Assembly: GCA_025449115.1 (NCBI GenBank)
Contig: JAHLKC010000006.1
Span: forward strand, 393,501-457,500
Source: Chytridium lagenaria
Taxonomy: Eukaryota; Chytridiomycota; Chytridiomycetes; Chytridiales; Chytridiaceae
Reading direction: 5' to 3'
DNA length: 64,000 nucleotides
The notes under the pieces were generated by a model. The model was not told the DNA's origin, made no database searches, and saw only the letters and a program-made list of their open reading frames with translations. This document shows positions 1 to 62,699 of this stretch, one piece after another (within the stretch, counting starts at the first letter, position 1; each line of letters starts with the position of its first letter). The translations under genes were made by a program, and so were the position numbers.

Positions 1-3000
1 GCAGGACCAAACATCAGCATCGGTCGATGATGTGCACGGACTTCGGACGGTTGCCTGGTCAAATTGGCCTTGGAGAAACAAGATGGGACCGTCATCTTAT
101 AAGTTTGACTACTTCATCTCCTACCGTGTATCATCTGAATCTGCGCTGGCCCGCGAATTGCGTCTTGAACTTGAATTGAGGGGTAAAAAAGCCTTCCTCG
201 ACCAAGAAGAGCTTAAAGATGGAGAGGTATGCTTCTTCACAATAGTGTGATACTCTTTGCTAAATAACTGCAAAGGATTGGAGGCAAGGTTTCGTGACAG
301 GACTTAAACGCTCCAAAGTCGTTATTCTGCTCATTTCTAAAGGTTGCATTGAGCGAATGAAGAGATCCTCGAGGGATGTCGACAATGTTCTCCTGGAGTG
401 GGAGACGGCTCTTTGTGCACAGGACATGGGCTTTTGCCATGTGATTCCAGGTACGCGGGCAAAGCTATTTGGTTCTTGGTCACAGTCTGACTTTTTACGA
501 ATTAGTTTTCATCGGATTGGGAGAGCTTGACTTTAAAGAGTATCCGAAGGAACGAGCCAACATGACATCGAAGGAAAATGCGAATGATATGGTGTGCCAG
601 CAGAGTGCATTCACCACGCTCAGCCAAGTTCAGGCGATCGCTCGAAGAATCGACCATCCTTATCCCAAGGAAGGGTGCTACGATGAGCTGATCGACGCTA
701 TAGTGAAGGAGATTGATGTATTCGATGGATTGCATATCAGCAAGGCCTCTCGCAGAGCGATGCTTGCTTATTTTGAGCTCGCATCGATAGATGCGTTTAC
801 ATCAGAGCATAAGGATCCTCTTAAAACGTGGATGAGCGATTCAGTTCACATTCTCATATACCTCGAAAGCATTTCGATAAGGCCCGAGCAGTTTTGGAAC
901 ATAACAACACATGGAAGCATTTCACTATCGGCGGTAAAATTTATTCCAGACCTACTAGTTTACTTGACGTTCTTTTTTCAAATCAGATATGGGGTCTTTG
1001 GAGGATTTAAGGGCATTTTTGAAAATCGTTATGATGAAATCGCCACGAAGCGTTGATATCCAAGGCAAGTTAATGAGTTTTGATACCCTTTTATATCTCT
1101 ATGCATGCTCTTGAAAATCTGATTCTATTTTATTACTTTTACATCATGCTCATTTTCGCATTATGCTTTCTTTTATCATTTCAGGTCGTACGCTGGATGA
1201 TGAAGAGTTTAAAGCACTTTTTACATTTTGGGTGGCTTGCAAGGATATGCCAAGTATCGCGTTGACTGGTGGGTTTACCGCCGCCTGGACCACCTTTATT
1301 GATTCTCTTTACAGAATGTACAATAGAGGATGAACGCGACTTTGGTTCTTTCTATTCGTTAGTTTCTTCTATATCCGGTATCGAAGAAATTATATTTTCG
1401 GGCGGAGGTTTGAGTTTGTCGCCTTCCTTTTTTTCTAATTTCCTCTAAAGATATGTACATGGATACATTTACGACGTTTGTTGCTGAAAAGTTGATCAAT
1501 GCAGTCAAAACCAGCGAAAAAATTTCAAGCATTAGGCTGTCATGTAGTTTGCATTTGATTTTGCTTTCATTAACTTTTTTTAGCATTGTCGTTTGAAGAA
1601 GAAGCTTTTGAAAAATTGATGAAAGGTTTGAAAGATACAGCGGTTAGCAAGCTGGATTTGTCCGGTACGCAATTGTTCTCCCGCATTTACTAATTTTTCT
1701 AGGAAATATATTAGATAGCCCTGCCGAGCTTATCGGCGAGTTTTTAAGAAATAACACGACTTTAAAGGACTTTACTTACTCAGGTGAGCTTAGCTTCGAA
1801 AGTGATTTGCTGAGTATTGTCTTATTTACTTTTGATTGATGTAGACAATTACCTTGATGACGAGCAACTCTTACTGATTATCGATGGCTTGAAGAATAAC
1901 ACCACCATTCGCAGTCTCAAGCTCCACGGTATGCAATATTTAGTTACCTTTTTATCCTCATATGAATATTTTGTGATAGGCGCGAATCCCGACAATGTTA
2001 CATGCGATGGACTGATTAGCCTCTTTACAACCTTGAAAACCACCAAACTGGAGAATTTTGAAATGAGCTTTGTGGATGGTATTGAAATCTGAACTTCTGA
2101 TGGTATTATTTAAATACTGACACTGTCAACCTTTTTATTTTAAAAGGCACCGCAACGTTTAATCAGGAATGTTCTGCGGCTTTTGCGGATTTCATATCTC
2201 GGACAACATCCCTTAAAACTCTTGTCTACATCGGTAAGGCCTGCCTTTTTTTTTTTTTTTTATGTTTTTTCAAACGTTGTGGTTTTTAGTTTGGGGGGCA
2301 TTACCTTTACATTCGTTTTCTCATCTAATGCATTACCGATCAAAGGTGGAATCTGCGGAGACACTGAGGCAATCCAGACAGCAGCAACAGCTCTCGCCAA
2401 CAATAAGTCTCTCCTCAGCGTGGATCTTTCGGGTAAGCATTCTTTTATTAATGAACTTTGCCTGTTGCATTGTCTCAAATCTTCTTCTCAGGTGCATTCT
2501 TGGACTGCGAGAGGTTTAAAATCTTGGCGTCGGCTTTAAGCCAAATGGATCAGCTAAAGTCTTTGAATATGTCAGGTAAGTTTTCTTTGAGATGCCACGT
2601 TCATTTCTTGATTTACTTTACTGAATTACTTTGATTATAGGAAACAACGTCTCTGACATGAACATTGAGCAATGGATTCAGCCTCTGTTTTTCCATGAAG
2701 TCACTCGAATCGTTGCGTTTGAACAATAACCGTCTTCTCGGAAACGGGTGCTTGAAGTGCATCGCAAAGATGATTGAGAAAGGAACCTCCATCGCGCATC
2801 TTTACCTAAACTGTTTGTATTCAAGTTTTCTCCCCTCACCCAGTATCGCTATATTCAACACTTTCAAACCTTTTTATCCTTTGGTTAATTATTTTCTTAC
2901 TTACGACTGTTCATTTACATCGAGGCTAAATTTCATTTATAGACAACGGATTTACGGATGAAGGTGCCTACGAATTCGCCTTGGCTCTCCAAAAGTCAAA

Positions 3001-6000
3001 AACGATCCAAAGTGTTGAGATTGAAGGTAAGGATGATTCGATCCCCGATAAATTAACACTGATATCATTATATTCATAGGAGTGCTGTCTTCAAGCAAAA
3101 CCGTCCATGCTTTAATCGAAGCTTTCAAGATTAACAACAATCTGTTACTCAAGTTTGATAACGAAGAAGGTTGGTTTTAGTTCTGAAATTTTGGGGTTTT
3201 AATATTGTGTAGTTTTAAACGATCTGGTCAAATACGAATACACTCTACCGATTCTTTTCCATAAGAATAATGCCGCCAATATTATCCAACCTAGTTCTAC
3301 GGGTACGTACGATACTTTTAGCGCCAAGTCTTTAGGATTTTTCTAAAGTCTTCTGTTTCCGTTTTACAGCAGCCTCGACTGTTATCAAGTTCAATGAAAG
3401 TACGTGTTGGTCTTTAAAAGTTACGATTGCTCCCTTTTTTTTTAAATCTTTTAACATAATGGCTTTTACAGATATTTCAGACACGACAGCAACCGCACAA
3501 CAAAAGGAGACAAATATCAGCACCACAATCATTGAGACAAAATCACGCATTCTAAAGGCATCCGCTCAACTTTCAGAGAAGGAAAAGGACATTGACTACT
3601 TTAAGAAAATCCTTTCCGCTGTTCAATCCATCGGTGCCATCTTTAAAAGAATGAGCGTCACCCACAACTACCTCAACTTTGATCCAACCTGGCCTATCGA
3701 ACTTAAAAACGAAGAACCCTCTATTGTTTTAATGGATCGCATCATGGACCAAGACCGAGTCATCTCAGATATGGATAAAGCGATTATCCGTGAAATCGGG
3801 CTTCGTTTAAGAGCAAAGAAGGTCAATAAGACGATGGTTGAATGGCTATCACAGTCCGACGACCATGAGGATAAGGCTGACGAGGAGGATGCTGCGGAAG
3901 TGATTTTGGACGATATTATGGATCAATTGAATGAAGTGGATGCTGAGGTGGCTGATGAGGCGGAAAATGGCCATGAGGAGAGCAAGAATGAGGAAGTTGG
4001 GGATGGAGAGGGACATCAGGAGTCTGGCGAAGGTGGTGTTTCTGGAGAGGTAGAAGGAGGAGAGGATGCAGAAAATGGGGATGATGATAACGAAAATGGC
4101 GATGATGATTATTACGAAAATGATGATGAAGAAGAGGAAGAGGAGGATGTCGAAGATGATGCTTATAGTTTTGTGTATGATGAGTCTCTCGACCCCGAAA
4201 ACAAAATGGTGACATTTACAGTGCGAAAGTCACAATACCCAACAGTCAAGGTACATTTAAATTGTGTGCCATGATTAACTTTTTGTGTAGTTTGTGAATC
4301 TCCGCAAAGCAGCCGTAGAAAATGATTCAAAGACCTTCCCAACCTTGGTCATTGTGTTTCTGTCTGAATCGATTATCTCGGGCTTGAGTGAATCAGAGGA
4401 GAAGGTTTGGGCGGCAATCAACGCTTGGGATTACATGATGCGTTTGGCGGATGAGACGTTTTTAGTTGTTCTTCCCAGTGAGTATTTTTGACTTGTATTG
4501 GTCGCATTTTACATGTTCTTATTCTTGTTGCTTCACATAGTCTTTGTTGCGACAAATGGAGAAGGGGGTGGAATTATCGGGAATATGATGACGAAACTAC
4601 GACACGCCCTATACTTGGTGAGCTCGAAGGGTTCCGAAACCTTAAAAGACAATCAGGTCGTTCAGGACGCATCGAAAACCGCAGCTGCAGGCAAGACTGA
4701 GAATGCAGAAAAGTCAGTCGCACGCGCCTTTGACACGATCAATAGACTTTTCAAGCTTCAAGGCCTTGTCGTCGAAAATCTTCAACAAGTCAAGGAATTA
4801 GTCGAAAAGATTGTAGAGGACTGCAGGCTTCAGTTGTGCAAGCAGGAAGCCGTAAGGTCTCCCAATATGCAATTGTTGAAGAACTCTGATACGAGGAGGC
4901 CGTCGCGAATGGCTTTACGACGGGGCTGTTTAACTTGAGCGATGATATCACAAGCAAAAACATCACCATTGTCGAGGCATGGCTTCCGCAATCTGTTTTC
5001 ACGAAATTCGAAGGTGTTCTGGGTTCGAAAAGGAATCAACTACCACTTTGACCACTATTATGGAGACGTTTGCCAAGTGCGGTGCTCTTGAGTCCATTGA
5101 TCTTGATGGTAATTCTTTGAATTTTCATTTTCAGTACTGGTACTAAAACACATTTGCAGCTGCTCTCTTCCGCGACTCGAATGATGGAACCGACGACGCT
5201 CTTGCTATTTTGACAAAGACCTTGAAAAAGTCTCGGTTGATTTCGTTAAAGTTGCATAGTAAGTGTCCAAAAGAAAACTGTATACGTGAGGTCTTTCATG
5301 CACTAACGATTTTGAATTTTATGAACATGATCGGTGGTAAGGCAGCACCTGGGTTGGCGAAAGCGGTATCGCAGCATCCCACTTTGAAAGAGCTTCATCT
5401 TCACGGTATACCTCAGTTTTTTTATTCCATTCACGGCATCATCTAAAAAATTATTAATTCTTTAACTTGTATTTGATATTAGGATTTGCGCTACACTTTA
5501 CGAAAGATATAGCTTTGGTTTGATGGAGAACAGGTTCTTACGAAATTGACTTTGAGAGGTGAGAACATATTGATATTCTTGATGATATACGTCAAACGTC
5601 ATTTTGATGTTATCTTTATTTAGGCGGCCGTTATGATGTGAACACATGTTGTGCCCTGCCGCTATGAATGACGAAGGCGTTAAGGCCCTGTCTGATCTTC
5701 TGCTGAAGAACAAGACATTGACTCATCTCAGTCTCCAAGGTACAGTTGGTTTTCAAGCGTTCCACATTTACTTACCTTGCATACCTTAGGTAACTCCTTG
5801 ACAACAAGTCACATGGAGCAAATCGGTGCCGCTCTTGCAAGGAATACCACTTTGACCTCCCTCGACCTTTCCTGTAAGTGAATTTAAAAGTTAATCGTGC
5901 TTTTTTCTTTCATAATTCTCTCTGTTCAGTCGGTTTTCTAAAATATTTCGAATAGACTGCCAGCTGCCTGACAACACAGTCGAGAGATTGACGACTTTCC

Positions 6001-8003
6001 TTCTTCCCAACCGGTCGATTGCCAATCTGGACTTGAGATGTAAGTTGGCCACCGATATTCTTTTTCATCTAACATGATATAGTCAACATGTTTGGATGTG
6101 AGGCTGGAAAGAGCATTGCTGCCCTGTTGGAAAAAAGTCACTCATTAAAATCTCTCAACTTGGCTGGTAAGTTTATTTTTGTATTCTATATGCTTTGAAG
6201 TCCTCTCTGCGCTTTACTTTCGTATTTTCGTTGCCGGTTTGTCATCTTATTCATAATCACTATCATTATAGACGAGAGAGCGACTGCTGCTGCAATGGAA
6301 GAGGGTCTTGCGGCGATATTTAAGGCGCTTGCATCCAATAGATTCTTGCAAGAACTTAATTTATCTGGTTTGTTATCTTTCAATTCAAATTTTTGCTGGA
6401 TTTTGTTCCAGAACGTTGCTTATATTGTTTATTGATAATTTACCAATTTTTGTGTAGGGAGAGTGATGAACTCGGAAAGTATTGCGGCATTCCCGAAGGC
6501 TTTGGAGAAAAATGGCAGCTTGCACAATATTTATATTAACGGTATTATTATACTTATTTTACAAAGCTTCGCAGGCTAATTCTTTGTAATGATGTTTAGA
6601 CTGTGCAATCGAAGCTGGTGACATGTTAAAGATTGTGACGATACTTTCAAAGGCAAGACGCTTTAAGACTGTTGATATCGGCAGTATGTGTTTTTTTTAT
6701 CAATTTGTCTAACCTCGGAAGGCAACGAACTCGATGAGCAATGCTTTTTGCAAATTGCTGAGTGGATCAAGCATGATCATGTCATGCAAATATTCAACGG
6801 AGGATTAAGCACTCGTGAGTAAAATGAAATTGCTGCATTTACTAACATTTTTAAGACCGAGAATATATATCTGCAACGGCCTCGTCCGCTATAATCAGCG
6901 CCGTTGAGACCAGCAATACCCTTGGTTGAATTTGATATCGAATTACCTAGTATCCGGAATCTATCCAAGCGAGGCTTGACCGGAATGTGTGGATCCAATG
7001 CACCGAAAACACAAGGGAGGCATGGAGATATGCCATCTACCATAACGACAAGGATGTCAAGTCCCACCTGAGGAGCCTGGAGAATTTCGCAGCCTTCTTT
7101 GCTAAAGACATGCATTTCCTTATTTTGATGGCATGCGAGTTTGGGGACATTGAAATGCTTAAAGCTGATTTCGAGACGGCTTCAGTTAAAGTGCTGGATT
7201 TGCCGGACCCTAATGACGGGATGACACCTTTGGGTTGCGCCATTCGTGGGGGATTCATCGAAGTCGTACGATTCCTCCTTTACCACGGTGTGTCGCCAAC
7301 AGCCTCGATTGGATACGGCAACAAATCCCGGCATTCTTCTACGCTGCAGGCACCTATGGACGTATTGACATTGCAAAGTTGATTTTGGAAGAGGCCTCGC
7401 CTAATCCTGATGAAGCAGTGGATGACGTTGCTGGCGAATTCACTCGACACGGGATTTACGGCGCTTCATAAGGCGGCTTTGAACGGTTACTATGAGGCTG
7501 TTGATGCAATCATAAAATGTGGTGGTACCCCTGACTTGGTTGATGCTTTTGGATCCACCGCATTGCATGTTGCTGCACGTGGACAAATTCAGGAGGAAGA
7601 TGTAGAAGGGGAGGAAGATGGGAATGACGAAGATTACGTTGGTGAGGAAGAGGAGGGTGACGGAGAAGGAGAAGGAGAAGATGAGGGTGAGGGTGAGGGT
7701 GAGGAAGAACAGGACGGTGAGGAAAGACTGAAGGGAAGAAGCGGTGACTGAGAGTAATGAAGAAATACAAGAACCCACAGCAGACCAAGTGGACAAATCA
7801 GAAGCCACTGAGGACGACACCAAGCCTAAAGTTGATCACGCTCGTGTTATTGAGATTTTGATCAATGCTGGAGTTCCTGGAGGTGCCTTAGACGGCAAGG
7901 GCAGGACGCCTTTGCAAATTGCTATCGAGAAAAAGAACAACATCTCGTCAACGTCTTGCAGAAATTGACATCCGAATTGCCTGCGACGGACCATGTCGAG
8001 TAA
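1..8003 (+). CDS. TIR-LRR-LRR-ankyrin receptor-like protein, copy 1 (5' end outside window)
   Basis: Multi-exon gene entered just before its TIR domain; copy 2 shows that roughly 200 N-terminal residues are missing. Order seen: TIR (exons about 1-226, 276-450, from 506), an LRR array with one repeat per small exon, an unknown central region with an acidic tract, a second LRR array, then ankyrin repeats ending in a TAA at 8001-8003 that aligns with the stop of copy 2. TIR domains act as signalling adaptors or NAD-cleaving enzymes, and LRR and ankyrin repeats bind ligands or partners; a cytosolic sensor is therefore inferred. I see no signal peptide, membrane segment, kinase or NTPase motif. 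Against copy 2 the reading frame is broken by single missing bases, for example near 855, 4890, 5030, 5525, 7740 and 7935. It could be a decaying copy or an intact gene with sequencing errors. Confidence 0.8.
91..545 (+). other. TIR domain of copy 1
   Basis: Three exons encode a typical TIR fold. Strand A reads FDYFISYR, the strand B/BB-loop region reads KKAFLDQEELKDGE and continues after the intron as DWRQGF. A SKVVILLISKGCIERM block follows, then the helix with DNVLLEWETAL and strand D with HVIP/VFIG. The acidic WE in that helix lies where NAD-consuming TIR proteins carry their catalytic glutamate, so enzymatic activity is possible but unproven. Donors at 227 and 451 and acceptors ending at 275 and 505 join these pieces in frame, and copy 2 has the same exon structure. 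Confidence 0.88.
1584..3169 (+). repeat. First LRR array, copy 1: one 27-28-residue repeat per exon
   Basis: About ten ribonuclease-inhibitor/NLR-type leucine-rich repeats, each in its own exon of 81 or 84 bp, for example 1584-1664, 1703-1783, 1845-1928 and 2943-3026. Each exon ends after the first base of a codon following an L-x-L-S/H-G motif, so all introns are phase 1 and exons can be gained or lost without changing frame. Typical units read NNTTIRSLKLHG and GFTDEGAYEFALAL. More degenerate coding sequence linking the TIR domain to the array lies at about 1060-1270. Confidence 0.82.
3459..4940 (+). other. Central unknown region with acidic tract, copy 1
   Basis: The long exon at about 3470-4250 begins with a helical stretch (KSRILKASAQLSEKEKDIDY), then a region around LNFDPTWPIELK, and ends in an Asp/Glu-rich tract (about 3850-4170) followed by KMVTFTVRKSQYP. 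Further exons (about 4291-4478 and 4541-4940) encode a conserved domain with FPTLVIVFLSESIISGL and a helix ARAFDTINRLFKLQGLVVEN. It is conserved in copy 2 at 13000-14530. I do not recognise the fold. A structure prediction of the exon at about 4541-4940 would be the useful test. Confidence 0.6.
5045..6830 (+). repeat. Second LRR array, copy 1
   Basis: About eleven further LRR exons of the same type as the first array, ending in motifs such as LKELHLHG, LTHLSLQG, LTSLDLS, LKSLNLAG and LQELNLSG. The exon at about 5790-5873 is again 84 bp and phase 1. One-base losses break the frame near 5030 and between about 5510 and 5540. The last units (about 6600-6820) are degenerate and lead into the ankyrin block. 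Confidence 0.8.
6960..8003 (+). repeat. Ankyrin repeats with inserted acidic tract, copy 1
   Basis: Ankyrin-type units are visible as DGMTPLGCAIRGGFIEVVRF, TALHKAALNGYYEAVDAI and STALHVAARG. They are then interrupted by an Asp/Glu/Gly-rich insertion (about 7590-7830), after which a last unit reads VIEILINAGVPGGALDGKGR followed by TPLQIAIEKKN. Upstream is a conserved helical lead-in (RNVWIQCTENTREAWRYAIY). Frame breaks lie near 7330, 7460, 7740 and 7935; copy 2 reads through the corresponding block uninterrupted. Confidence 0.82.
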
Positions 8004-8791
8004 ATACTTTAATTTCAACCACTTTTTTATTTCGCAGTGATTCCGTTCAGCTGCGTGCCTTCTTAATCATATGTTTTATGTTCCCCTTAGCCCGCACAAG
8101 TGGTGGGTCATATTCATAAATACCTTTGTATTCTAGTCGTTTCCCAGTTTTACATACAACTAAAAATCAGTCATTAAGGAGATATGCTTCTTTTCAATAT
8201 CACTTAGACTCATACAGTGCCACCATGAAACTTTTCTTTGACCTTCAATAATCCTCGGGGGTGACGTTCAATGCTTGCACCGCTGCTCCAGGTTTAGCTG
8301 AATTCAGTTTTAAAAAACCATTATCTAGTCGCCAAGATGGGTGGGCTTATGTGAGCAGCAATAGATGGGGTCACCTCTAGAGTGCCTATCTTTGCATCCG
8401 ATAATTCATGTACCTATCAAAACCCATTGACATTAAACGTGAACTCACCACCGTTATTTGAAGCGACAACAGTGTGCGGTATCCACTGGCTGTTGAAGCC
8501 CACCTTCTTTACGAAATGCATTCACCATCAATATTGTCTTTTTTAGACGGGGCCAAGAGGTTGCTGTAGCCATGCAAAGTCCATTTTCCTCTTAAATTTT
8601 TGTCATCGCACGCATCCCACCCCAATAATGGATGGATGGATGGCGTGGCATAACAGACCGCAAGTTGTGCAACCTTTAATGGAAGGCTTCGCTTTTAAAG
8701 ACCGAAAAAGCGTCAGTATTGCCACTATTACATCACATCACCAACATCACCAGAAGAAGCCCCAAAGTACTGCTCCTCTGCTGGTTCTGCG
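8004..8791 (+). other. Intergenic region between the two receptor copies
   Basis: No convincing gene. It should hold the 3' end of copy 1 and the promoter of copy 2. A short GGAT tandem run lies at about 8628-8642. Confidence 0.5.
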
Positions 8792-11700
8792 ATGGCATAT
8801 CGTAAGTGTCCGACGTCGGCAGTGACCATCTCATTTGCCGGCTCAATGCTTAATCCAATACTGCTGAATCTGAAACTGCTCTTGCAGCTTATCCAAATGG
8901 CAATCCCCCATCTTATGTCGCCGACTCCATGACACCCCGGCTGAACAGCTAGGAACACCTCCCGTTCCTCCTCGGCGTATAGCCTCCAATCGTGCTGAAA
9001 CGGACGTTGTCGGCCATTTGAAAAAAACAATGCAGAAACTGCAGGAAACACTCGACAACCGCCAGAGTCAGATCGCTCAGTTAACGGCGGTTATTAATAG
9101 CTCTGAAACTACCGCTGCAGCCGCCGTTGTTCCATCCGTTATGAAAATGACTCCAGCATCACCAGATGCACAAGATGCACAACGCTCACTACCAAATCCT
9201 GGCTTCCTGCCGAACTTCAATGGTAGTAGTCTGTCACTTCACACTTATACTAACGCATGGTTTATAGACACTGCGATCGAGCTGACTATTCGAAAGTTTC
9301 TTGAAGTCACTGACCAAGAAGATTTCTCTATCACTTCTGATGAAGCCTTTCTTAACATTTTAAAAACTGTCGATGAGAAACTTAAGAGACGACTAGTGGC
9401 CGACGAGTATAAGCTTGCCGAAATCAAGGCAAAAATTAAAGATAAGGAAAGAGAATGGCAAGATCAGACGTCAGCATCATCCGATGATATTTATGAGCTC
9501 CGGACAGTCGCTTGGTCCAGCTGGCCTTGGAAAAACAAGATGGGAAAATCGTCCTATCACTACGATTACTTCATTTCCTACCGAGTGGCATCCGAGTCTG
9601 CCTTGGCGCGAGAATTGCAGCTTGAGCTTGAACTGAGGGGTAAAAAAGCATTCCTTGATCAGGAGGAACTCAAAGACGGAGAGGTACGATGTCAGTCATG
9701 CGATTTAATCTAAACTTATTCGACGGAAAGGATTGGAGACAGGGATTCGTTACAGGGCTTAAACGTTCCAGAGTCGTCATTCTGCTTGTCTCCAAAGGCT
9801 GCATTGAACGGATGAGAAATTCATCACAGGAAGTTGACAACGTTTTATTAGAATGGGAAACTGCTCTGTGCGCGCAGGAAATGGGCTTTTGCCATGTGCT
9901 TCCAGGTATGCAGCTTAAATATAGCTTTGGCCTTTAGTCTAATTATACTTAACACATTACAAAGTTTTTATTGGGGTGGGAGAGATAGATTTTCAGACAT
10001 TCCCTAAAGAACGAGCAACCATCACATCAAAAGAAAGCTCAAGTGATATGATGTGCCAGCAAAGTGCATTTACAACTTTGAGTCAAGTGAAGGGAATTTC
10101 CCGGAGACTTTATCACCCGTTTCCAAAGGAAGGGTGCCATGAGGAGTTGATCACTGCTTTAGTGAAAGAGCTTGATGTATTCGGAGGAGTATACAACGAC
10201 AAGGTTGCTCGGAGAGCCATGCTTGCTTACTATGAGCTTGCATCTATAGATACATTTACGTCAAAACACAAGGACCCTATAAAGACTTGGATAAACGATT
10301 CGCTGCAAATCATTCACGTACCTCGAAAGCTTCTCGACAAGGTGCGGGCTGCATTAGAGCAAAACAAACGTGGAAGCATTTTTCGATCGCGGTATGTCAA
10401 GAAAGCGTTTTTGATTGAATTGAAGCATGGCCTTATCGCTTTTAAATTTGCTGTGTTGTTTAACATTTTTCTACCGTAGATATGGGGTCTTTCGAAAATC
10501 TTAAGTCTCTACTTAAAATCGTAATGCTCAAGTCACCTACTAGTGTCGAAATTCAAAGTAAGTATACTGTTTCAATTTATCACCCTCGTCGCCCATATGA
10601 TCCTTGAAGCGGATAATTTTTCATTTTTTTTTTGTCGACCTCAAATTAGTTTACTACCTCCTTGACAACGTTCCTTTGACGAATGCATCACTTTCTTTCC
10701 GTCTCTTCACATTTTACCTCTTTCACACTTTCATCTCTAACTTTTTCATGAAAACGTTTCCGTGTACCTACCTATATATTGAAACTCTCTCTAATATCTT
10801 TTACAGATCAATACGTTGATCAGGAAGTGTTGAAAACATTTTTGGCGTTTTGGCGTAGTTGCGCGGAGTTTGAAGAGCATTTCCCTGAAAGGTAAGTCCT
10901 GGTTGTCCCTTAAGCGGCTTAAAATTAAATTTTCAAATAGAATGTTCAATAGAAAACACTACAGTTGTTACATTCTACAACGTTCTCGCTTCCTTAGACA
11001 AATACGAAGAGATCAAATATTGTGGAGAAGGTAGTTTTGCTCATCGTTGTGTAGCAAAGACTGGCTGCATTGTAACACTATTCCATACAGATTCAGTCGA
11101 ATCGGAAGATAAATCCTCTTGAATCCGCTCAGGCTTAATTAATGGAGTAAAAATCTCGAAACACTGAAAAGCATTGAGTTGTCATGTTAAGATCTGAACT
11201 CTATCTCAAACTCACGAATGTTTAGGCTAGCTATTGACGGCGAGACCTTGGAAGTGTTGTAAAGGGTCTAAAAAATACGGCAATAAGCAGGCTCACGTTA
11301 TCGGGTATTAAAACTTGTTTACGTCCATCACTAAACTCTTCGCAGCAATTGCTGGTGATAGTCTAAAAAATGACGGAACTATTCTCGGGGATTTCTTTAG
11401 AGGAAACACGACTTTAATTGACTTCGATTACTCGAGTGAGTCTATTAAATTATATGTAACCTAGTACCTAACCGTATTCGTCGTTTACAAGATAATGAAA
11501 TCAGCGATACTAAGCTTGTAGCGTTTTCCGATGGACTAAAGAATAACACCACTATTCGGAGTCTGAAGCTTCAGGGTAGCTCTTGCTTGTCAAAAAAACG
11601 CTGTTGCTAAAATACACCTTGTAGATACGGATTGCGCCGACGTTACAAGTGATGGGCTTAAACTCATTTTTCAAGCCTTGAAAACAACCAAAATGGAGTA

Positions 11701-14700
11701 TTTTGAAATAACTTTCTTTAATGGTAATGATTCCGGGCTGGTAACTTTTACTAATTACACTTTCTTTTCTTCGTTAATAAGGCGTCGTGTCCATTAAGAA
11801 GGAATTAGCTATGGTTTTTGCAGATTATATCTGTTCGACGACATACCTGAAGAACTTATCTTTACAGGTTCAGCTTGTTTTTGAATTAATCTCGTTTTCC
11901 CCCCGATTTCCCCTCTTTCTTAACATAAACTTCATCGGTACATTGGTTAAAATCGCCGTACAGGAGGGACCTGCGCAGACGATGGAGCGATATACATTTT
12001 GCGTCAGCACTCGGCAGGAATAAATCTATCATTTCTCTAGACTTTCCGGTAGGACATCTAAATTAATAATTTGATTTATAGTACCTTGGTAATTTCTAAC
12101 CGTTGCAGAGAACACTTATAATGACGAAACTTTGAAATTCTGGTTGCATCACTCAGCAGAATGGATCAGCTCGAAAGTTTAAATTTGTCCGTTGTTATAA
12201 CTCGCTTACGTTTGCTTTACTTTTTGACTAACTTTATAAATCATAGGAAATTGCATATCAGACGAACGAGCCGAGAAATGCATTCAACTACTGTTTTTCC
12301 ATGAAATCGCTGAAATCTCTGTGGTTGAGAACAATCGACGTCTTGGAGATCGGGCTCTTAAGTGCATTGCCAAGATGATCGAGAGAGGGACCTCTGTCGC
12401 ACATCTTTATTTAAATTGTGGGTACCTTTCTTAACTTCTCCGTCGACCAGAAATCATCCACCTTTGTCGCTCTTATTTGCTCATCCAACGTTTTCATTAG
12501 ACAATGGTTTCACTGATGAAGGAGCTTACGAGTTTGCCGTTGCTTTGAAAAGCGCAAAAAATATAAAAAGTGTCGAGCTTGAAGGTATGGTGTTCGTGTC
12601 AATATAGAACTAACATCGCACTCTATTTCAATAGGAGTGTTGGCCTCCATTGACACCGTCCACGCTTTAATCGAAGCATCGAAAATCAATAAAGGATTGC
12701 TACTCAAGTTTGATAATGAAGAAGGTTATATTGAGTTAAATTTGATATTAACAGCTATCAGCACTCACAATCTCGTCAGATATGAATACAACTTCCCACC
12801 TTGTTTCACTTAAATAACGCTCCACCTGAAATGTCTTCTGGCAAAAGTCTGTGCTCATCTTATCGATTATTCAGGATTTAACTAACCGCAATGCACAGAT
12901 GATTCGACTATAATCAAATTTAATGAAGGAAAGTATCTCGCATCTACAACTCGTTTTCGGTGTATGGGCAAAATTTGTGGACTTACACTTTCTACAGATA
13001 TCTCCGAAACAGCTCCGGCAGAGCAACATACTGTTGCTAGCACAATATCTGACACAAAGTCAGAGATTTTAAAGGCGGCCGCTAAACTATCCGATACGGG
13101 AAAAGAACATTGATTATCTCAAGGAATTCTCCATGCTGTAGAAACAATCAGCTCAACTTTCAAGAGGGTGAGAGTCACTCACAACTACCTTAACTTCGAC
13201 CCATCTGGCGATTGAGCTGAAAGATCCACAACCCTCTGTCGTCTTAATGGATCGAATTTTAAATGAAGACCATGGGATTTCAAATGAGGACAAATCCATT
13301 ATACTGAAATAGGGTTCGTCTAAGAGCCAAGAAGGTTATATGAATGAAAGACTGGCTTCTGCAGTCCGATGCGGAAGAAAAGGTGAAGAAAAGGACGTAT
13401 CGATGAGATTTCGAGGGCGATTTGGACTATTTGTTGAGAATTGTCCAACAAGCGGAGGAAGATCTAAAAGATGGGGACGAAGCTGGTGAAGAAGGAGAGG
13501 AAGCGACGACGAAGGGGCTGATGAGGATGATGAAGAAGAGGAAGAAAGGATGATGAGGAGGATGAAGGGGAGGATGACGAGGAGGATGACGAGGAGGATT
13601 GAAGAGGACGAAGAGGATGAAGCTGAAGAAACGAAGAGGCGACATTAGGATGACGCTGAAAGCTTCATCCAGGACGAGATTCGGATCCTACTAAAAAGAT
13701 GGTCACATTTAACTGTTAAAAAGTCGGAGTACCCGAGAGTGAAGGTATGAAATAATTATGTTATGGTTCTGACTCGTCGCATTAAGTTGTGAATGTCCGC
13801 AAAGCAGCTGCAGGCAGTGATGCCAATACCTTTCCCACACTTGTGACCGTGTTTTTGTCGGAATCGATCATCTCAGGTTTAAGGCCTCCGAAGAGAAGGT
13901 ATGGGCTGCCATTAACGCTTGGATTATATGATGCGTTTGGCGATGAGACATTTTTGGTCGTTTACCAAGTGAGTTAGCTACGTCTTTTGCACTGGACCTT
14001 CAGCATATTAGCCATTAATCACATTTCTATTGTATGTGTACATTAGTTTTATTGCTTCGAATGGAGAAGGGATAGGAATTATTGGAAGCATGTTGACAAG
14101 CTCCGACATGCTCTTACTTGGTCAGCTCTAGGAGTCACGAACTCGATCGAACAAGGAAGCTATTGACAATGGACCGAACTCCGAAGCCGAACACGCGAAA
14201 GATTCTGAAAAGTCAGTTGCGCGCGCTTTTGACACGATCAACAGGCTCTTTAAGCTTCAGGGCCTTGTAGTGGAAAACCTCCAGCAAGTGAAGGGACTAG
14301 TAGAAAAAATTGTGGAGGATTGCAGGCTTCAGCTTCGCAAGGAGGAGCGGGTATCGGCTCCGTATCAGCAAATGCTTCGAAATTCAGATTATGAAGAAGA
14401 TATTGCTGGTGGCTTCGTCACTGGGCTATTTAAATTTTCGAAGGCTTGGATCACAAGCGACAACATTCATTTCGTTGAAACGTGTTGCCTAGCCAGTTTT
14501 CACAAAGTTTGAGGGAGAGCTTGGTTGGGAAACGGAGTGACCATACTTTAACCACCCTAATGGGAAACGTTTGCTAAGTGCCGTGCGCTTGAGTCTATTA
14601 ATTTAGACGGTAAATCTAACTCTGTCATTTTATTTCTGCAAGTGATCCGAATTTAAACTCTTTTCTTTCTAGCTGCTCTTGACAAGACTCAAATGACGGA

Positions 14701-17442
14701 ACAGACGATGCTCTCGCGATTTGTCCAAGCCTTAACTAAGTCTCGCTTAATATCGTTAACTTTGCATAGTAAGCGAGAATTCTCCTTTTTTATAACTTCA
14801 TTTAACAAATAATTCTCGTAATAACTTCATTTAACTAATAATTCTCGTACAACTAGTGAACATGATCAGTGGTAAAGCGGCACCTGGATTGGCACGAGCT
14901 GTTTCGGAGCACCCTACGTTAAAGGAACTTCATCTACTCGGTACAGACAAATACATTGTCAATCTATATTCAATTCACTAACGACTTTTGTTTCACATTC
15001 GTAAAATTAGGTTTCGCCTTTCATTTTACTAAAGAGATAGCGTCAAAGCTTAAGGAGAACAAAGTGCTGACCAAATTGACACTACGAGGTAAAATATTTA
15101 GATGAATGCCACTAAAATTGTAGGTGGTCGATATGATGTTGATAATAAATTCAAACCCGAGGCTCTAAATGACAATGGAATAAAAGCCCTGTCGGATCTT
15201 TTGCTGCATAACAAGACCTTGACACATCTTAGTCTTCAAGGTATCATTCTTTTTTCTTTTGTAACTAAGAAGAATTGGGATTCTTATTGGCAACGTGTCA
15301 ATTACATGACTAATTTTGTGCAGGTAATATTCTAAGTCCTAAACATACGGAGCAACTTGGTGCCGCCCTTGCCAGAAACAATACTTTGACATCTCTTGAT
15401 CTTTCATGTAAGTGCTGACACGAAAAAATTTGATTAGCTTTGAATGAATAAGTTGATTTTATTGGTTTGTTAATTTTCTCTTTTTCATAGACTGCCAGCT
15501 TTACGACCAAGAGGTTGTAACATTGATGACTTTCCTTCTTCCGAATCATTCCCTTGCTCACCTTGACTTAAAATGTACGTTGTATCAGGTTTAAATGATT
15601 ATGTTAATTTTTTCCCATAGATAATATGTTCGGAAGCGAAGGTGGAAAGAGTATTGCTACTTTGTTACAAAACAGTCGTTCCTTGAAATCGCTTAATCTG
15701 GCTGGTATGGATTCTGGACATTTTCTTCACTCTTACATCTGCCCACCTTGCGCTCGTTTGAACCTTTTTTTAACTTTCTCATTTATTAAAATCATGCGTA
15801 CTAAATATGAAAAAGGTGACCCGAAAGCTGCTGATACTATGGAGGAAGGTCTTTCAGAGATTTTGAAAGCGCTTGACTCCGCCAAGTACTTGAAAGAGCT
15901 TAATTTATCAGGTTTGTTTTGTCTTTCGTCCTTTAATTCGTTTTTCTATTTCCCTAATCGAACCATTATTGCAATACTAAACTGTTCTTACAGGAAGAAA
16001 GATGGACTTCGAAAGTCTTTCTTTCTTCCCACATGCACTGGAGAAAAACACAAGTCTTCACACGGTTATCATCAACGGTAGCCCTTTATAATTCAACTGT
16101 ATGCTGACTAATTTTGTGTTATATTGCTATAGACTGCAGCATTCAAGCTAGCGAGATGTCAGCAATTTTGACTGTGCTCGCAAAATCAAAACGATTTAAA
16201 AGCGTTGAAATATTAAGTAAGTTAGTTTATTAACACATCTAACTTTATAAAGAAAACAATCTTAACGAGGAATGTTACATTAAGATAGCTGATTGGATTA
16301 AATCTGATCGCGTTTTGCAAAAGTTAAAGGCTCAACCGTGGGTGAGTCGAAAAAAAGGGAAATAATTATCGGTGTTAAACTTGATAAGGCCTGAAAAAAT
16401 GTCTACGGATGTCGCTTCGGCTTTAACTAGTGCTGTTGTGGGCAGCAGCACTCTGACCGAATTTGATCTCGACTTACCGGAAGTGGCTAAAGCCATTCAG
16501 GAACGGCTCGATAGGAACGTTTGGATGCAGATTGCCGAAAACACAAGGGAAGCTTGCGATATGCTTTCTACAATGAAGATAAGGAAGTGAAATCACACTT
16601 GAGAAGCTTAGGAGACTCCCGCCTTTTTCAAAAAGGAGCACATTACCTTATTTGTTTGCGTGCGAGTTTGGGGATATTGACATGCTCAAAGCTGACTTCG
16701 ATACGAAATGGGAGACTTGCTTGATAAGCCCGACCCTAACGATGGAATGATGCCCTTGGGTTGCGCCATACGGGGAGGTCACGTTGAAGTGGTCAAGTTT
16801 CTCTTACGCCACGGAGTAAGGCCCATCGCTTCCATCGAGCAAGGGAAAAACGTCCCCGCTCTATTCTATGCTGCAGGTGTTTACGGGGACGTTGAGATCG
16901 CAACTTTGTTGATGGCAGAATCTCCATCGATCGATCCCGACGAAGCAGTGGATGACGTTGACGGAGACTTTACTCGACGCAGTTTTTCTGCCCTCCATAA
17001 GGCGGCTCTGAATGGATACTATGAGGCTGTCGAAGCTCTCGTGAAATGGAGTGGAAATCCGGCGTTGGTTGACGCCTTCGGGTCCAGCCCATTGCATGTT
17101 GCCGCACGTGGATATATCGAGGAGGATGATAATGACGATGACGAAGAAGAGGAAGAAGAAGAGGAAGACGAAGAGGATGAGGATGAAGATGACGAGGAGG
17201 AGGGAGACGACGAGGAGGAGGGAGATGAGGACGAGGACGAGGAGGAGGACGATGAGGAAGAGGACGATGGCCCTGAAGTTGATCACGCACGGGTTATAGA
17301 GATTTTGATAAAAGCTGGATTAAGTCTTGATGCTAAAGATGGGAAAGGAAGGACGCCATTACAGATTGCGACAATGAAGAAGAAACAGGATCTAGTCGAT
17401 GTCTTGCAAAGATTAGCGTCTGAGCAGTCTGCCAAGGCTTAA
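8792..17442 (+). CDS. TIR-LRR-LRR-ankyrin receptor-like protein, copy 2
   Basis: Full-length paralogue of the preceding gene. A small first exon (8792-8801, MAY) is followed by a GTAAGT donor, an acceptor at 8887 and a long exon to 9683. That exon holds a proline-rich start, a short predicted coiled coil (MKKTMQKLQETLDNRQSQIA) and a helical linker, then enters the TIR domain. Further exons (9731-9905, 9965-10391, 10480-10557) complete TIR and linker. LRR array, central acidic region, second LRR array and ankyrin block follow in the same order as copy 1, ending at TAA 17440-17442. Frame breaks relative to copy 1 occur near 8940, 13100, 13200, 14540 and 14735, and are densest in the central region, which may be truly decaying. 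Tandem head-to-tail arrangement implies gene duplication. Function as an intracellular sensor is inferred from architecture only. Confidence 0.8.
9550..10005 (+). other. TIR domain of copy 2
   Basis: Same exon structure as copy 1: YDYFISYRVASESALARE, KKAFLDQEELKDGE, then DWRQGFVTGLKRSRVVILLV, the DNVLLEWETAL helix and HVLP/VFIGVGEID. The putative catalytic glutamate position is kept. Donors follow 9683 and 9905; acceptors end at 9730 and 9964. This version has no frame break inside the domain, which suggests continuing constraint. Confidence 0.88.
10800..12735 (+). repeat. First LRR array, copy 2
   Basis: LRR exons corresponding to those of copy 1, with units such as NNTTIRSLKLQG and GFTDEGAYEFAVALKSAK. 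Splice positions match the copy 1 introns, while intron sequences have diverged strongly. Several units carry frame breaks or weak splice signals, and the first units (about 10800-11450) are hard to read. Confidence 0.72.
13000..14530 (+). other. Central unknown region with acidic tract, copy 2 (frame-broken)
   Basis: Aligns with 3459-4940 of copy 1, for example the segment around VTHNYLNFDP and the domain beginning VNVRKAAAGSD. The acidic stretch (about 13380-13660) is interrupted by several one-base length changes and stop codons. The downstream helix (VVENLQQVKGLVEKIVEDCR) and the GGFVTGLFKFS segment are intact. This is the most damaged part of copy 2. Confidence 0.6.
14540..16230 (+). repeat. 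Second LRR array, copy 2
   Basis: About eleven LRR exons with ends such as LKELHLLG, LTKLTLRG, LTHLSLQG, LTSLDLS, LKSLNLAG and LKELNLSG, in the same order as copy 1. Frame breaks near 14735 (ILTK-like motif in copy 1) and in some splice junctions. Confidence 0.75.
16521..17442 (+). repeat. Ankyrin repeats with long acidic insertion, copy 2
   Basis: From 16708 one uninterrupted frame encodes ankyrin units (DGMMPLGCAIRGGHVEVVKF, VPALFYAAGVYGDVEIA, SALHKAALNGYYEAVEALVK, SSPLHVAARG). A tract of roughly 48 almost purely Asp/Glu residues follows (about 17122-17268), then a final unit (RVIEILIKAGLSLDAKDGKG) and the stop. The insertion sits between two ankyrin units, as in copy 1, but differs in sequence and length, and is built from GAG/GAC-type triplet repeats likely to change length by slippage. 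Confidence 0.85.
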
Positions 17443-17872: not shown

Positions 17873-20800
17873 CTAGCATTCTTCTCCCAAAATTGTTTGC
17901 ATTCCAAAACAAACAGGAAATAATAATACAGTGAATAAATACTGCAAAGGAAAAATGCGAATCACGCCATAACACTGCAACCAGCCCCTCCATGTGTTGA
18001 CTGCAGGGAGACAATCTCTAACAACGCACTCTTCATCCTCGCCTTCTCCTCTGTTTTTTTTCCCAACAGGCAAATCTTCAGACAATACCAACTCTAAACC
18101 TTTCTCCAAAGCCAACCATCTCAGCACAGGCAATGTGACGGGCCTCAGAGTCATCATCAGCCTTTGAATCAAAGAATCATTTCTTGTGAAGCTATGGATC
18201 ATCAGATTCCCGTTACCCTGCTCCACCAGTAGCTGCATCATTTCCAATACAGTCTCGGGCTGTCCAGGCGCAGCCTGTGCGCAGGCAAACAATAGCCCTT
18301 CTTTACACTCTCCACCATGGTTGACACCATCCTTTAACCTCTTGATCAAAAACCTGACCATCTGAAACACCTTCCTGCGTTCCGCCACTGACATATTTGC
18401 GTGAAATTGGAACACGTATGTGACAAAGTGACGAAGAAGAGCCGTAAAAACCTCTAAAGAAAACTTGGTTTGCTCACAATAATGGTAAACGACTTTCAGC
18501 GTTTCCAATTCAGCATCAATGAAAGCTGCGGAGCAAAGAGGAAGGGGTATATTCGACTTGATTTTGGAACTGTTTTTGACCTTTCGAAGCATCCACTTTG
18601 CTATCTTGCACCGATTACGTCGAATGTGATATTCAATGCTGTTAAATCCGTTCCTCATGATTCTCTCAAATTTAATTGTTGCATGTTGGAGTGCGTGACG
18701 CGTGACGGCAAACTCGGACTTTGGATCCACCTTTTTCAGCTCGTCTACAAGAGCCTCCTGTTGAATGGTGCAGCTTCGAAGATCCCATAACTCTTGATCA
18801 TCTTCAATATCAGAGATCATCCTCGTGTCATCTAAGTAGAGTGCACGATATTCCATGTCCTTTTTTTGTATTTCATCACTCAACGCAAAGAGTATGTCAA
18901 GTTTCGCGACAAGTTTAATCATGTCAGAATTTTTCGAACTTTTTGTGCGAAACCGAACGTAACCCCACACCTCGCTTCTCTGCAGGGCGATGTCGCGGTA
19001 AATTCCTTTACACATGATCCGCTTAAGCACATCTGGCCTATCGTAGGTGAAGATATGCTCAAGGAAAAGCTCAGCCGGATTCTCGACGTCATCTGCACTC
19101 GAAGTGGAAAAAATCTTGGTTTTCTTGCACACGCACACGATTTTCTTTGCCGAAGATTTTGTCTCAAAGAGAGAGAGGGCAGGGTTGCGTGCTCGTGCGC
19201 TAAGGACGCGATTAAGGATCGTCTGGAGTTCGGGCTTGATAAGATGTGATGACTCTATCTCCTTTCGATCATCTTGCGTGAGATAAATGGTTTGACAGGA
19301 AATAAGTGCTTTGGCGACAACCAAAGACCGAGGGTAAACGCTGGCCATAGCAAGCTCGACGGCCAGTTTTTCATCAGCGTCCTTCACTCCCAAACATCGA
19401 CAAACCCGTGTTTAAGTAGCCAAATACATACGAGAGAGCTTCCCCGAGATGCCGCAACATGAAATATTGTTCGATTGTTTGAAAAGAGAGTCTTTCGAGG
19501 GTCAATACCACAATTCTCGATGAGCCAAGCAACAACAAAGACCGCGTCTAAGCCTGAAGCCAGTCCAAGCAGAACTCGTCCGAGAGTAGTATACTCATTA
19601 CAGGCATACCAAGAGTGCTCCTTAGCTATAGCATGAAGGAGTCGTGCCGCCATAGGGATAAATGAAGGCACAACACACAATTTCTCGCACACAGTACATT
19701 GGACTGTCTTCACAATGTTGACTCCATTTTGGCTAGCGACATCCCAGAAATCTTGAAGGCAGTGAGTGCAAAACCTATGGCCACACTCTAATGTAATAAT
19801 ATCACATGTTAGGCAGTATGGTTTACAACCACATTCAACCTTATTACTATCAACTAAAACCCCCAACAGATCTGTATCCATCATTTCCACCGGCGGCTTT
19901 GGGCGAATGGCATAATCGAGACGGAGATTATTGCTTCGAACAAGAAAATCGAGAATGTCGACCTGATTTGCCTCTACTAAAAGATCCAACCGAGGTAAAC
20001 ATATTGGACCCTCAACGTGAACACGTGCAGCAATCATCTTGACAATACGGAAGCGTTCACGGGTGGGAACGTTATCATACCTCTCCTTTGGATCCATCTT
20101 ACCCAGGAGACTCGGCTTCCCCGGCTCGTTAAATAGATACCTTGCAATCCTCCTCAAAGCGTGAAGCTGCCCATTCCACTCACTCATCACGGTCGTCAGG
20201 AAATGATGTTCCGCCCATGAAAAGGTTGTTGAGACATCCGTTGGCCAAATCCGTCTCATTTGGGAAAGTTTTCTCAATAAAGTCTTCCTGCAAATATTGG
20301 TTTCCGACCCATGCTTTGGCGTAGAGAGCCTCCTGACTGCGGTTGAAATACCATCCTCCCATAGCAGCTGCATCAGCTGCAGAGATACCATCCCATTTAA
20401 CAATACCTGTTCCAGTCGATGAAGCTACAGCTCCAATCCCGCAGTCCAGAAGTATCCTCACCCTCCGTTCAAATCCCAAAGCACCCACATATTTTAAGCA
20501 ATTAAGAAGCTGAACATTCTCTTCCATAGTCCAACGACCAGGATAAAGACGTAGCTTATTCTCCAAAAATCCATCAGCAATGTCAACACAAAAGGCGTTC
20601 AGCTTTATCTTCCTTATCAAGTCTTTGACGAGAGGTTGAAGCGGCAAAGCATTGTTAGCTTGATAAACTATCCGTTCTAAAAACCCTGAAGTTTTGCGCC
20701 TGTAACTAGTAATCTCTTCCATGAACACTGACGGATGCCGCATGAAGGCGTTGAACACATCGACTCTGCCTCTCTCCAGGGCAAGCTCATACGGCGTCTG

Positions 20801-21118
20801 TTTCTTCTCGGACTGACCATTCAGGAAGCTCCTTGCATTGTAGCGATGAAGAAGATAGTCGATGATTGGAATCGCTCCATGGATAACAGCAGAGTGAAGG
20901 AGATTATATTCGTAGTGGTCGGGAGACTTTGATAATGGAGGTACTTTGCCGTTGCTCAGCACCCAATGAAGTAAAGCGACAAAGCCCTTTCGAACGCAGC
21001 AAAAAGCGATTTCATTCCATTCCTCTTTTGTATGGGAGACCTTTGCCAGAGCTGCGGGAGTGGAGAGGAGGTCGTTGAGACGACCGACCTCCTTATCGAT
21101 GCCTCTTGCGAAGTACAT
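17873..21118 (-). CDS. Ankyrin-repeat protein with internal RING-type zinc finger
   Basis: Three long minus-strand frames (21118-20180, 20403-19384, 19393-17873) overlap and continue each other, giving a protein of about 1,080 residues if two one-base breaks (near 20190 and 19388) are read through. Ankyrin-like units appear near the N terminus (YNLLHSAVIHGAIPIIDYLL) and in the middle (RTIFHVAASRGSSLVCIWLL). Between them is a RING-type cysteine/histidine cluster. The remaining C-terminal half is alpha-helical looking with no known domain, ending in a hydrophobic segment (IRIFPLQYLFTVLLFPVCFG). Ankyrin plus RING suggests a ubiquitin ligase that recruits substrates, which is inferred. It is convergent with the receptor-like copy 2. 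The junction near 20190 could instead be a small intron. Confidence 0.75.
19686..19820 (-). other. RING-type zinc-binding motif
   Basis: Within the ankyrin gene the minus strand reads CLTC, six residues, CGHRFCTHC, a spacer of about 20 residues, then CTVC. The spacing Cx2C-x6-CxHx2Cx2C-xn-Cx2C fits a C3HC4 RING, and the CGHRFC block resembles RING1 of RBR ligases. An upstream CGC pair could also bind metal. Confidence 0.7.
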
Positions 21119-21652
21119 CTGCTTGTTTGATGTCCGATTTGTTGCAAGGAAAATTCAAATTCCGACACATCGTTTGAACATATATATTTGTCGAAGTTAT
21201 TTCGTGTGTGGTCATTATATAAAAATGCTGTCCGAAGTATAATTTAACAAAATGACGACAAAAGATCGGTAGCTGCCATCTTTCTTAACATTTCCAAAGC
21301 CTCTGCAGTGTCAAGTTCATTTCTAGTATCTGCAATGGCATCAAATTCGAATTAAGGAAGAAATGAAAAAGTTAAAAAACATTTGCAGAAAAAGTATGAA
21401 TGAAAAAGACGTCAAGGTCCTATCAGAGTAGATGAATGTACAATTAAACTGTGAGTATTATGTAGACTAAAACTGACTGAAGTAGAAATAAAATAAAAAG
21501 AGATAAAAGAACAGTAATAGGCACAGCCTTCAACAAGAAAAGTGGACAAAGCCGATTGTAGGAACTTAAAAATCACTATAAATAACCGAAGCGACGAAGG
21601 ATATGAAAAAGGGTGCGAAGCCAAAGAGTTATAGTAGACGATTTCAAGTAGA
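21119..21652. other. Intergenic region
   Basis: Upstream of the ankyrin/RING gene and downstream of the ABC ATPase gene. A/T-rich; no supported gene. Confidence 0.5.
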
Positions 21653-41217: not shown

Positions 41218-42062
41218 AGAGAGTAAGTAATCGGAGGAAATCAAATGCCTGGAAGATCGTCTCGTTTGAAATTCTGGGACAGTGTTCTACATTGTTTAGT
41301 TTTTTTTTTTCTCATGCCTGCCCCCAACTCTATAGATTTCTTTGTTGACGCCTTTTAGAAACGTATGTTTTTTGTACAGCTTTAGACCTATTTATAGACT
41401 TGTTGGCGCCTTTTAGAAACGTATGTTTTTTGTACAGCTTTAGACCTATTTATAGACTTTTCCTTCAACCTAAACCTTGTTTCACTACTTCTTTGTTCTG
41501 GTTCATCATTCATGTATGGATTGAAATTCTCATGTTCAAGACTTTTTTTTACGGCTTGTAATATACTTCAGTTACATGAATAGACTTCCCCAATCAATTT
41601 CCCCAATATTAAACCTCCTTGCGATAAGAATCGGAAAACATATAAACATTGTGACAAGGAGATTGAGAGCGTAGACTTGACGAATCGGTGTCGTCTTGTG
41701 GTCCTTATTCATACATACTTTCTTTCTTGCCTTAACAAAAAATGGGATCCCAATACATCCACGAATTTTTGGTGGTTAGGATGGAATGTAATCAAGGTTC
41801 CAGATCATATATAAAGAATCATAACCTTTTATTCGGGTATACAATATGGACGTCTTTTTTTAAAAGTCCCGATACACACACGATGCCGTTAACGTTAAAA
41901 TAAATTATGAACGGAAAAAAAAGCGTTATAAAAGTTCCACATCTACAATAAAGCATCACCCTTTTATTCCGTAATAACACCGCATCTACAATAAACGATA
42001 CATCCCTTTTTTTTTGGTAACAAAAATACGAGGCAAAATAAAATAAATAAAATACGAGGCTC
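41218..42062. other. Intergenic region
   Basis: Between the SR-rich gene and the end of the Pro-rich gene. Contains the 58-bp tandem repeat listed separately. Near 41935-42000 the phrase CATCTACAATAAA occurs twice. Confidence 0.5.
41342..41458 (+). repeat. 58-bp tandem duplication
   Basis: Two adjacent units begin TTGTTGACGCC (41342) and TTGTTGGCGCC (41400) and are otherwise identical by eye, including ACGTATGTTTTTTGTACAGC. The near identity points to recent origin. It lies in the presumed 3' UTR of the SR-rich gene. Confidence 0.9.
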
Positions 42063-47640: not shown

Positions 47641-47785
47641 TTTTGAACGCGCTGGTTCGCGTTTCTGCCTTTTTTTTCCGTACGTTTACCTGTTTTCCGT
47701 TCAACGTTTTTCTTGTATTTTTTTTTTTAACATACTTTTTACCTCCTTTTTTCTTTCCCACCTCGTATGTACCCACTTTTTTTGA

Positions 47786-47918
47786 TCTTGACGCTCAAAT
47801 AAAACAATAACCGTATTCCAACAAAAAAAAGAATCATCACACCATCACAGTCCCGTGTTTCTAAAATCTTAATAAAATTCCTACCCCATTTTGTATCTCG
47901 ACCGGCGCATCGGCGCAT

Positions 47919-47959
<41 letters not shown>

Positions 47960-62690: not shown

Positions 62691-62699
62691 AAAACTACT

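Follow-up and report, generated by a model that had tools for sequence, protein, structure and literature searches.

A chytrid family of large TIR-LRR-ankyrin proteins with a second, glutamate-less TIR domain between two LRR arrays

We analyzed a 64,000-nucleotide stretch of the Chytridium lagenaria genome (assembly GCA_025449115.1, contig JAHLKC010000006.1, positions 393,501 to 457,500 of the forward strand; hereafter the window), whose first 17,442 nucleotides carry two paralogous genes lying head to tail, as revealed by base-by-base alignment of the pair. Both genes belong to a real family with uncharacterized relatives in several chytrid genera, and their domain order is coil-TIR1-LRR1-TIR2-LRR2-ankyrin. 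We propose that these are large, probably cytosolic receptors in which a TIR2 lacking the catalytic glutamate regulates TIR1, a reading whose chances we judge to be evenly balanced. The original prediction had described a TIR domain, an LRR array, an unknown acidic central region, a second LRR array and ankyrin repeats. The finding is stronger than that prediction held because a second TIR domain is present in the middle region.

The two TIR domains and the missing nucleoside triphosphatase

Pfam profiles bore out the predicted TIR-LRR-LRR-ankyrin order in both window genes, with matches to TIR (PF13676, E value 2.4e-13) and ankyrin repeats (PF12796, 6.5e-21) in gene 2 and to LRR array 1 (PF00560, 8.1e-5) and LRR array 2 (PF13516, 1.1e-7) in gene 1. 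Between the LRR arrays, the Pfam scan was silent at an E value of 0.01. An acidic insert does lie there, as predicted, but the region is mostly folded and contains TIR2. Alignment of TIR2 with TIR1 by hhalign gave an E value of 4.7e-7 and, in a set of 25 sequences, the TIR2 domain model matched gene 1 TIR1 at 1.8e-6 and the TIR1 model matched the TIR2 of Zopfochytrium at 7.2e-6. The top 23 Foldseek rows obtained with the TIR2 model were all TIR domains, and the best VIA match among the matches listed was one chain of the TIR heterodimer formed by RPS4 and RRS1. The introns of TIR2 also resemble those of TIR1. Fold and homology thus both place TIR2 in the TIR superfamily, and the alignment, the cross-matching models, the Foldseek rows and the similar introns make it very improbable that TIR2 is some other Rossmann-like or GTPase-like fold resembling TIR. 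The Pfam copy used here recognizes just one of the two TIR domains per protein in this family.

TIR1 belongs to the superfamily by its PF13676 match and its fold. A search of the PDB with the TIR1 profile returned SARM1 as the top match (1.4e-10), and the predicted "WE" glutamate is retained, that of "LLEW" being aligned with a SARM1 glutamate, which we take to be E642; E642A stands in the title of a structure entry among the Foldseek matches of the TIR1 model. The best Foldseek rows of this AlphaFold model (predicted local distance difference test score, pLDDT, 85.7) were SARM1 at 3.0e-6. A PDB sequence search with query A1 gave no match at an E value of 1. Across the family (relatives from public databases are designated P0001 and so on), 19 of 24 TIR1 rows (domain matches below 1e-10) carry the glutamate, and the other five all come from P0008, P0010 and P0011, annotated proteins without that exon. 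In these Phlyctochytrium planicorne proteins, the annotated TIR1 diverges past "LKDGE", and the missing exon may reflect a gene-model error or a real loss. In TIR2, the glutamate is found in none of 18 rows from 17 proteins, its place being taken by A, T, S, C, F or I. Judged by these residues, TIR1 is apparently a working NAD-cutting domain and TIR2 apparently a degenerate, catalytically dead one. The anatomy fits a TIR-LRR unit that was doubled within one gene and whose second TIR later lost its active site. No homology was found between the regions preceding TIR1 and TIR2 or between the two regions following them (0.3-1.4%), and a tree test of TIR2 as sister to TIR1 gave no resolution.

The prediction that the proteins contain no nucleoside triphosphatase (NTPase) held. 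NB-ARC and NACHT had no Pfam match in the window proteins or in P0001, P0003, P0009 and P0012, and were missing from the listed domains of P0001-P0013; a P-loop pattern occurred in one of 17 proteins, within an LRR array. The sequence "NGEGGGIIG" of the middle region was dropped as a candidate degenerate P-loop, lying just past the last TIR1-matched strand and showing no P-loop conservation. ARM and SAM, the domains of the SARM1 family, had no Pfam match in the window proteins or the four scanned relatives. TIR1 precedes the LRR arrays, an order different from the Toll-like layout of an LRR ectodomain followed by TIR. A crude hydropathy scan gave maxima of 1.24-1.92 across 17 proteins, with nine above 1.6, always within TIR, LRR or linker, and maxima of at most 1.59 in the three copies of this genome. 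The receptors are probably cytosolic, as predicted, though such a scan is a weak test of location. We favor one gene per receptor, with all domains predicted in a single chain, because homologs in public databases are single proteins with the same order, about 1,800-2,600 amino acids (aa) long.

Relatives, constraint and other TIR loci

The public protein searches scored 7,992 and 7,988 candidates, namely those sharing most words. The first listed 120 of its 132 matches, and 106 of these 120 were dropped as ankyrin-repeat matches to proteins of animal ankyrin-2 type by name. We then scanned 25 sequences (three from this genome and 22 public, animal ankyrins excluded) with the domain models. 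The family extends beyond this genome, and 16 of the sequences, from several chytrid genera, show the complete five-domain order: gene 1, gene 2, a third copy on contig C62, P0001-P0008, P0010-P0012, P0121 and P0122, with TIR1 partial in P0008, P0010 and P0011. At least three TIR2 loci exist in this genome. Among the remaining sequences, P0009 shows the flanks of TIR2 without its core, P0013 (Zopfochytrium) is missing the ankyrins, P0041, P0124 and P0125 (Obelidium, Physocladia and Rhizoclosmatium) have TIR-LRR only, P0126 has TIR only, and P0123 (a Joint Genome Institute metagenome) and starfish P0127 and P0128 match in LRR only. Apart from such repeat-only matches, all relatives among the matches listed are fungal, and the eight species checked (P. 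bullatum being outside those eight) are all Chytridiomycetes. Doubled forms occur in Chytridiaceae and Blyttiomyces and simple forms in Chytriomycetaceae. A series from TIR-LRR through the doubled form to the addition of ankyrins is plausible, with its direction inferred. Tandem copies may recur in relatives: the contigs of P0001 and P0002 are equally long, P0008 and P0010 have consecutive gene numbers, and P0121 holds two units in one protein.

The public chytrid proteins P0001-P0012, P0121 and P0122 belong to the same family, with the complete order in 13 of the 14. Their labels, presumably automatic names, are "NAD(+) hydrolase sarm1" (two), "NACHT, LRR and PYD domains-containing protein 14" (two) and hypothetical (ten). 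The original prediction matched the order it saw to no described family, and we likewise found no description of the family in the open-licence PubMed Central (PMC) literature; one elsewhere is possible. A search with the central region retrieved P0001 itself and P0007 and nothing else, probably because the query words sit in a variable stretch. PF27087 is among the listed domains of relatives. Those of P0002 (Dinochytrium kinnereticum, 2632 aa) include PF03462 and PF00472, presumably peptide-release-factor families; this annotation is probably a fusion with a neighboring gene.

Comparison of gene 1 with gene 2 gave a nonsynonymous divergence (dN) of 0.27 overall, with synonymous divergence (dS) saturated at 2.75. 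By region, dN rose from 0.08 in TIR1 and 0.14 in TIR2 through 0.215 in LRR2, 0.228 in the ankyrins and 0.39 in LRR1 to 0.529 in the acidic insert. Mean identity across the family was 61.6% for TIR1, 32.0% for TIR2 and 22.6% for LRR1, the lowest of nine regions. TIR1 and TIR2 are under strong constraint and LRR1 is the fastest-changing folded part, a pattern that suits, and does not prove, an output and a partner that stay fixed while the sensor changes.

The original prediction regarded TIR domains as scarce in fungi, which is half right: this genome has at least eight further TIR-like loci (on contigs C35, C36, C8, C300, C76 and C17), plus two more on C36, and excerpts of PMC9815663 report TIR in NOD-like receptors (NLRs) of Chytridiomycota. 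Against the whole genome, Pfam PF01582 had no match and PF13676 had three, all on C36, probably because the TIR exons are split; protein queries succeeded. Pfam matched NPHP3_N (5.4e-15) and WD40 (1.5e-24) at the C35 locus (L021, C35:22001-31900), NPHP3_N (4.3e-25) at the C76 locus (L025, C76:175001-184900), where NACHT fell below its cut-off and WD-like repeats were seen by eye, and WD40 (1.2e-74) at the C8 locus (L023, C8:202001-211900), where NTPase motifs were seen by eye and the open reading frame (ORF) carrying them had no family match. The C35 and C8 TIR exons, with no Pfam match alone, were recognized by similarity to the window protein (9.1e-10 and 7.0e-8). From their adjoining TIR, NTPase and/or WD40 parts, these three loci are putative TIR-NLR-like receptors. 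The other TIR loci are those on C17 (L026), on C300 (L024) and on C36 (101933-102205, 175999-176163 and 184756-184911); those on C17 and C36 are grouped in threes.

Gene layout

The exons of the two genes are similar and differ mainly at third positions, and the introns are dissimilar. We placed the exon limits of gene 1 by hand from the two-gene alignment; its introns are GT-AG, with one GC donor and one acceptor reading TA as exceptions. Its 5′ end lies outside the window, in adjoining DNA that is still homologous to gene 2 and supplies an in-frame ATG. The aligner placed 32 introns in gene 2 on the gene 1 template, a few of them doubtful. Most LRRs in both genes occupy a single exon of about 84 bases flanked by phase-1 introns, and these symmetric exons (1185-6814 and 10807-16345) form a modular layout that would permit repeat shuffling.

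Features of the two genes (window positions)
Feature	Positions	Strand	Remarks	Basis
Gene 1	1..8003	+	34 exons, first exon from about -567	Two-gene alignment
Gene 1 TIR1	97..600	+	Limits approximate; exon end 226, exons 276-450 and 506-; "DNVLLEWE" with glutamate	
Gene 1 conserved linker following TIR1	600..1064	+	Start approximate	
Gene 1 LRR array 1	1185..3302	+	Exons 5-18, mostly one repeat of about 28 aa per exon, phase-1 introns	
Gene 1 helical region and TIR2 first half	3472..3870	+	Strand A and helix A, read from model; end approximate	
Gene 1 acidic insert within TIR2	3870..4190	+	Probably disordered; limits approximate	Low pLDDT, equivalent P0002 stretch
Gene 1 TIR2 second half	4190..4635	+	Exons to 4250, 4291-4477 and from 4541; "INAWD" replaces "LLEWE"	
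Gene 1 conserved region following TIR2	4635..5108	+	Start approximate	
Gene 1 LRR array 2	5160..6814	+	Exons 23-33, phase-1 introns	
Gene 1 ankyrin repeats	6856..8003	+	Acidic insert about 7590-7740	
Gene 2	8888..17442	+	Start uncertain (possible ATG with donor about 8793); stop codon 17440-17442	
Gene 2 TIR1	9553..10080	+	Limits approximate; exons to 9683, 9731-9905 and from 9965	
Gene 2 LRR array 1	10807..12846	+		
Gene 2 TIR2 and preceding helical part	13013..14150	+	Acidic insert about 13400-13640; densely frame-broken	
Gene 2 LRR array 2	14673..16345	+		
Gene 2 ankyrin repeats	16389..17442	+	Acidic insert about 17120-17275	

Elsewhere in the window, one or more neighboring genes lie on the minus strand at 17873-21154, where adjoining frames match ankyrin weakly and RING below threshold. 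Blocks of strong GC skew, opposite in sign, occupy 42001-48000 and 62001-64000 (+0.42 over 42-44 kb, -0.45 over 46-48 kb and -0.34 over 62-64 kb), and no Pfam family matches any of three long ORFs lying at 42.1-43.3 and 45.8-47.0 kb.

Proposed mechanism, alternatives and known systems

In the proposed mechanism, LRR1, perhaps together with LRR2 and the ankyrins, would bind a ligand or a guarded protein, and TIR1, switched off at rest, would be an NADase of the SARM1 type or a related nucleotide enzyme. The dead TIR2 would pack with TIR1, or with the TIR2 of a neighboring molecule, and thereby either keep TIR1 inactive or seed TIR assembly, taking over part of the switching done by the NOD NTPase in plant and animal NLRs. 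The result would be a loss of NAD, or else a nucleotide signal, and with it cell death or defense. Both the sensor role and NAD cleavage are what we infer from sequence. A bolder version, which we entertain tentatively and consider somewhat less probable than its opposite, is that these are NTPase-free fungal intracellular immune receptors in which the gate of a TIR NADase resembling SARM1 is an in-chain dead TIR with a long acidic insert, between two LRR arrays. This pseudoenzyme switch would replace NOD, and the receptors would work alongside others of the TIR-NACHT-WD40 type within one cell.

Many TIR domains are adaptors, and both TIRs could be interaction modules of a scaffold, like MyD88-type adaptors, with a structural glutamate and a developmental or cytoskeletal role. 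Enzyme activity of TIR1 is a prediction from sequence, and repeats and acidic inserts suit scaffolds; yet the TIR1 glutamate is kept wherever the gene model includes its exon, TIR2, also constrained, is without it in all 18 rows, and among solved structures TIR1 comes closest to SARM1 NADases, which leaves the scaffold rather unlikely. A role in allorecognition, with the receptors governing self/non-self fusion or mating like HET-domain proteins in Dikarya, seems a little less likely still. Of the folded parts, LRR1 varies most, and HET domains, distant relatives of TIR, act in fungal allorecognition according to excerpts of PMC4986451 and PMC10197012; against this, just three copies were found in this genome, a lower bound.

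It is also conceivable that both window genes are dead and a working copy lies elsewhere. Our hand-made reading of gene 1 contains 14 frame breaks (X), and the aligner called 43 in gene 2, mostly at 12.0-14.75 kb, some of which may be alignment artefacts; dN is slightly higher in the gene 2 stretch where breaks are dense (0.284) than in one where they are few (0.229). The C62 copy has 14 breaks and two stops by the same means, partly alignment artefacts, six of the breaks falling in the poorly aligned LRR1 part. However, the saturated dS beside a low dN, lowest in TIR1, indicates constraint until recently, and the gene 2 breaks are concentrated within one 2.7-kb stretch. Moreover, this aligner also called breaks in HSP70-type loci of C12 and C11 (13, 4 and 4) and none in the template gene on C29, as expected of an error-carrying assembly. 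Breaks aside, the two C12 proteins show good conservation; the C11 protein is distant and has one called stop, making its count less sure (loci used: C12:418225-423053, L028; C11:75001-77500, L030). Given that HSP70-type genes show breaks too and that constraint is long-standing, single-base assembly errors explain the breaks better than gene death does, without this being proven, and we consider dead genes improbable.

Among known systems, the SARM1/TIR-1 NAD+ hydrolases are closest to TIR1 in solved sequence and structure, with the glutamate aligned. SARM1 likewise has no NOD NTPase, but its architecture is ARM-SAM-SAM-TIR, whereas the chytrid family has LRRs and ankyrins, an N-terminal TIR and a second, glutamate-less one. 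Plant TIR-NB-ARC-LRR receptors share the N-terminal TIR plus LRR; among them, RPS4/RRS1 pair their TIRs in trans, one partner being weak, whereas the chytrid proteins have no NB-ARC match and carry the second TIR in cis, between LRR arrays. Fungal NLRs and the TIR-NTPase/WD40 loci of this genome are similar in being intracellular, with a TIR or TIR-like N-terminal domain and repeats, but they combine a STAND (signal transduction ATPase with numerous domains) NTPase with WD40, ANK or TPR, and excerpts of PMC4986451 report no LRR in fungal NLRs, unlike the LRR-bearing, NTPase-free chytrid family. Dictyostelium TirE also has two diverged tandem TIRs per protein, missed by prior Pfam hidden Markov models, but carries RCC1 repeats, and the excerpts of PMC13142454 mention no inter-TIR LRR array. 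Mollusc Toll-2 gained an additional TIR in a Toll receptor, with both TIRs adjacent at the C-terminus (excerpts of PMC4929906). The family is a variant among TIR-repeat receptors and not something wholly separate.

According to excerpts of PMC2939053, a survey that names one chytrid, Toll-like receptors are confined to metazoa, with an exception, no fungal proteins combine NB-ARC with LRR, and fungi lack LRR pattern-recognition receptors. Set against this survey and the LRR-less fungal NLRs of PMC4986451, as excerpted, the present family, known from several chytrid genera, joins a glutamate-bearing TIR to arrays of LRRs, with no NTPase found. It raises the questions of whether a TIR receptor may switch without a nucleotide-binding domain and whether dead TIR partners, here paired in cis, control live ones.
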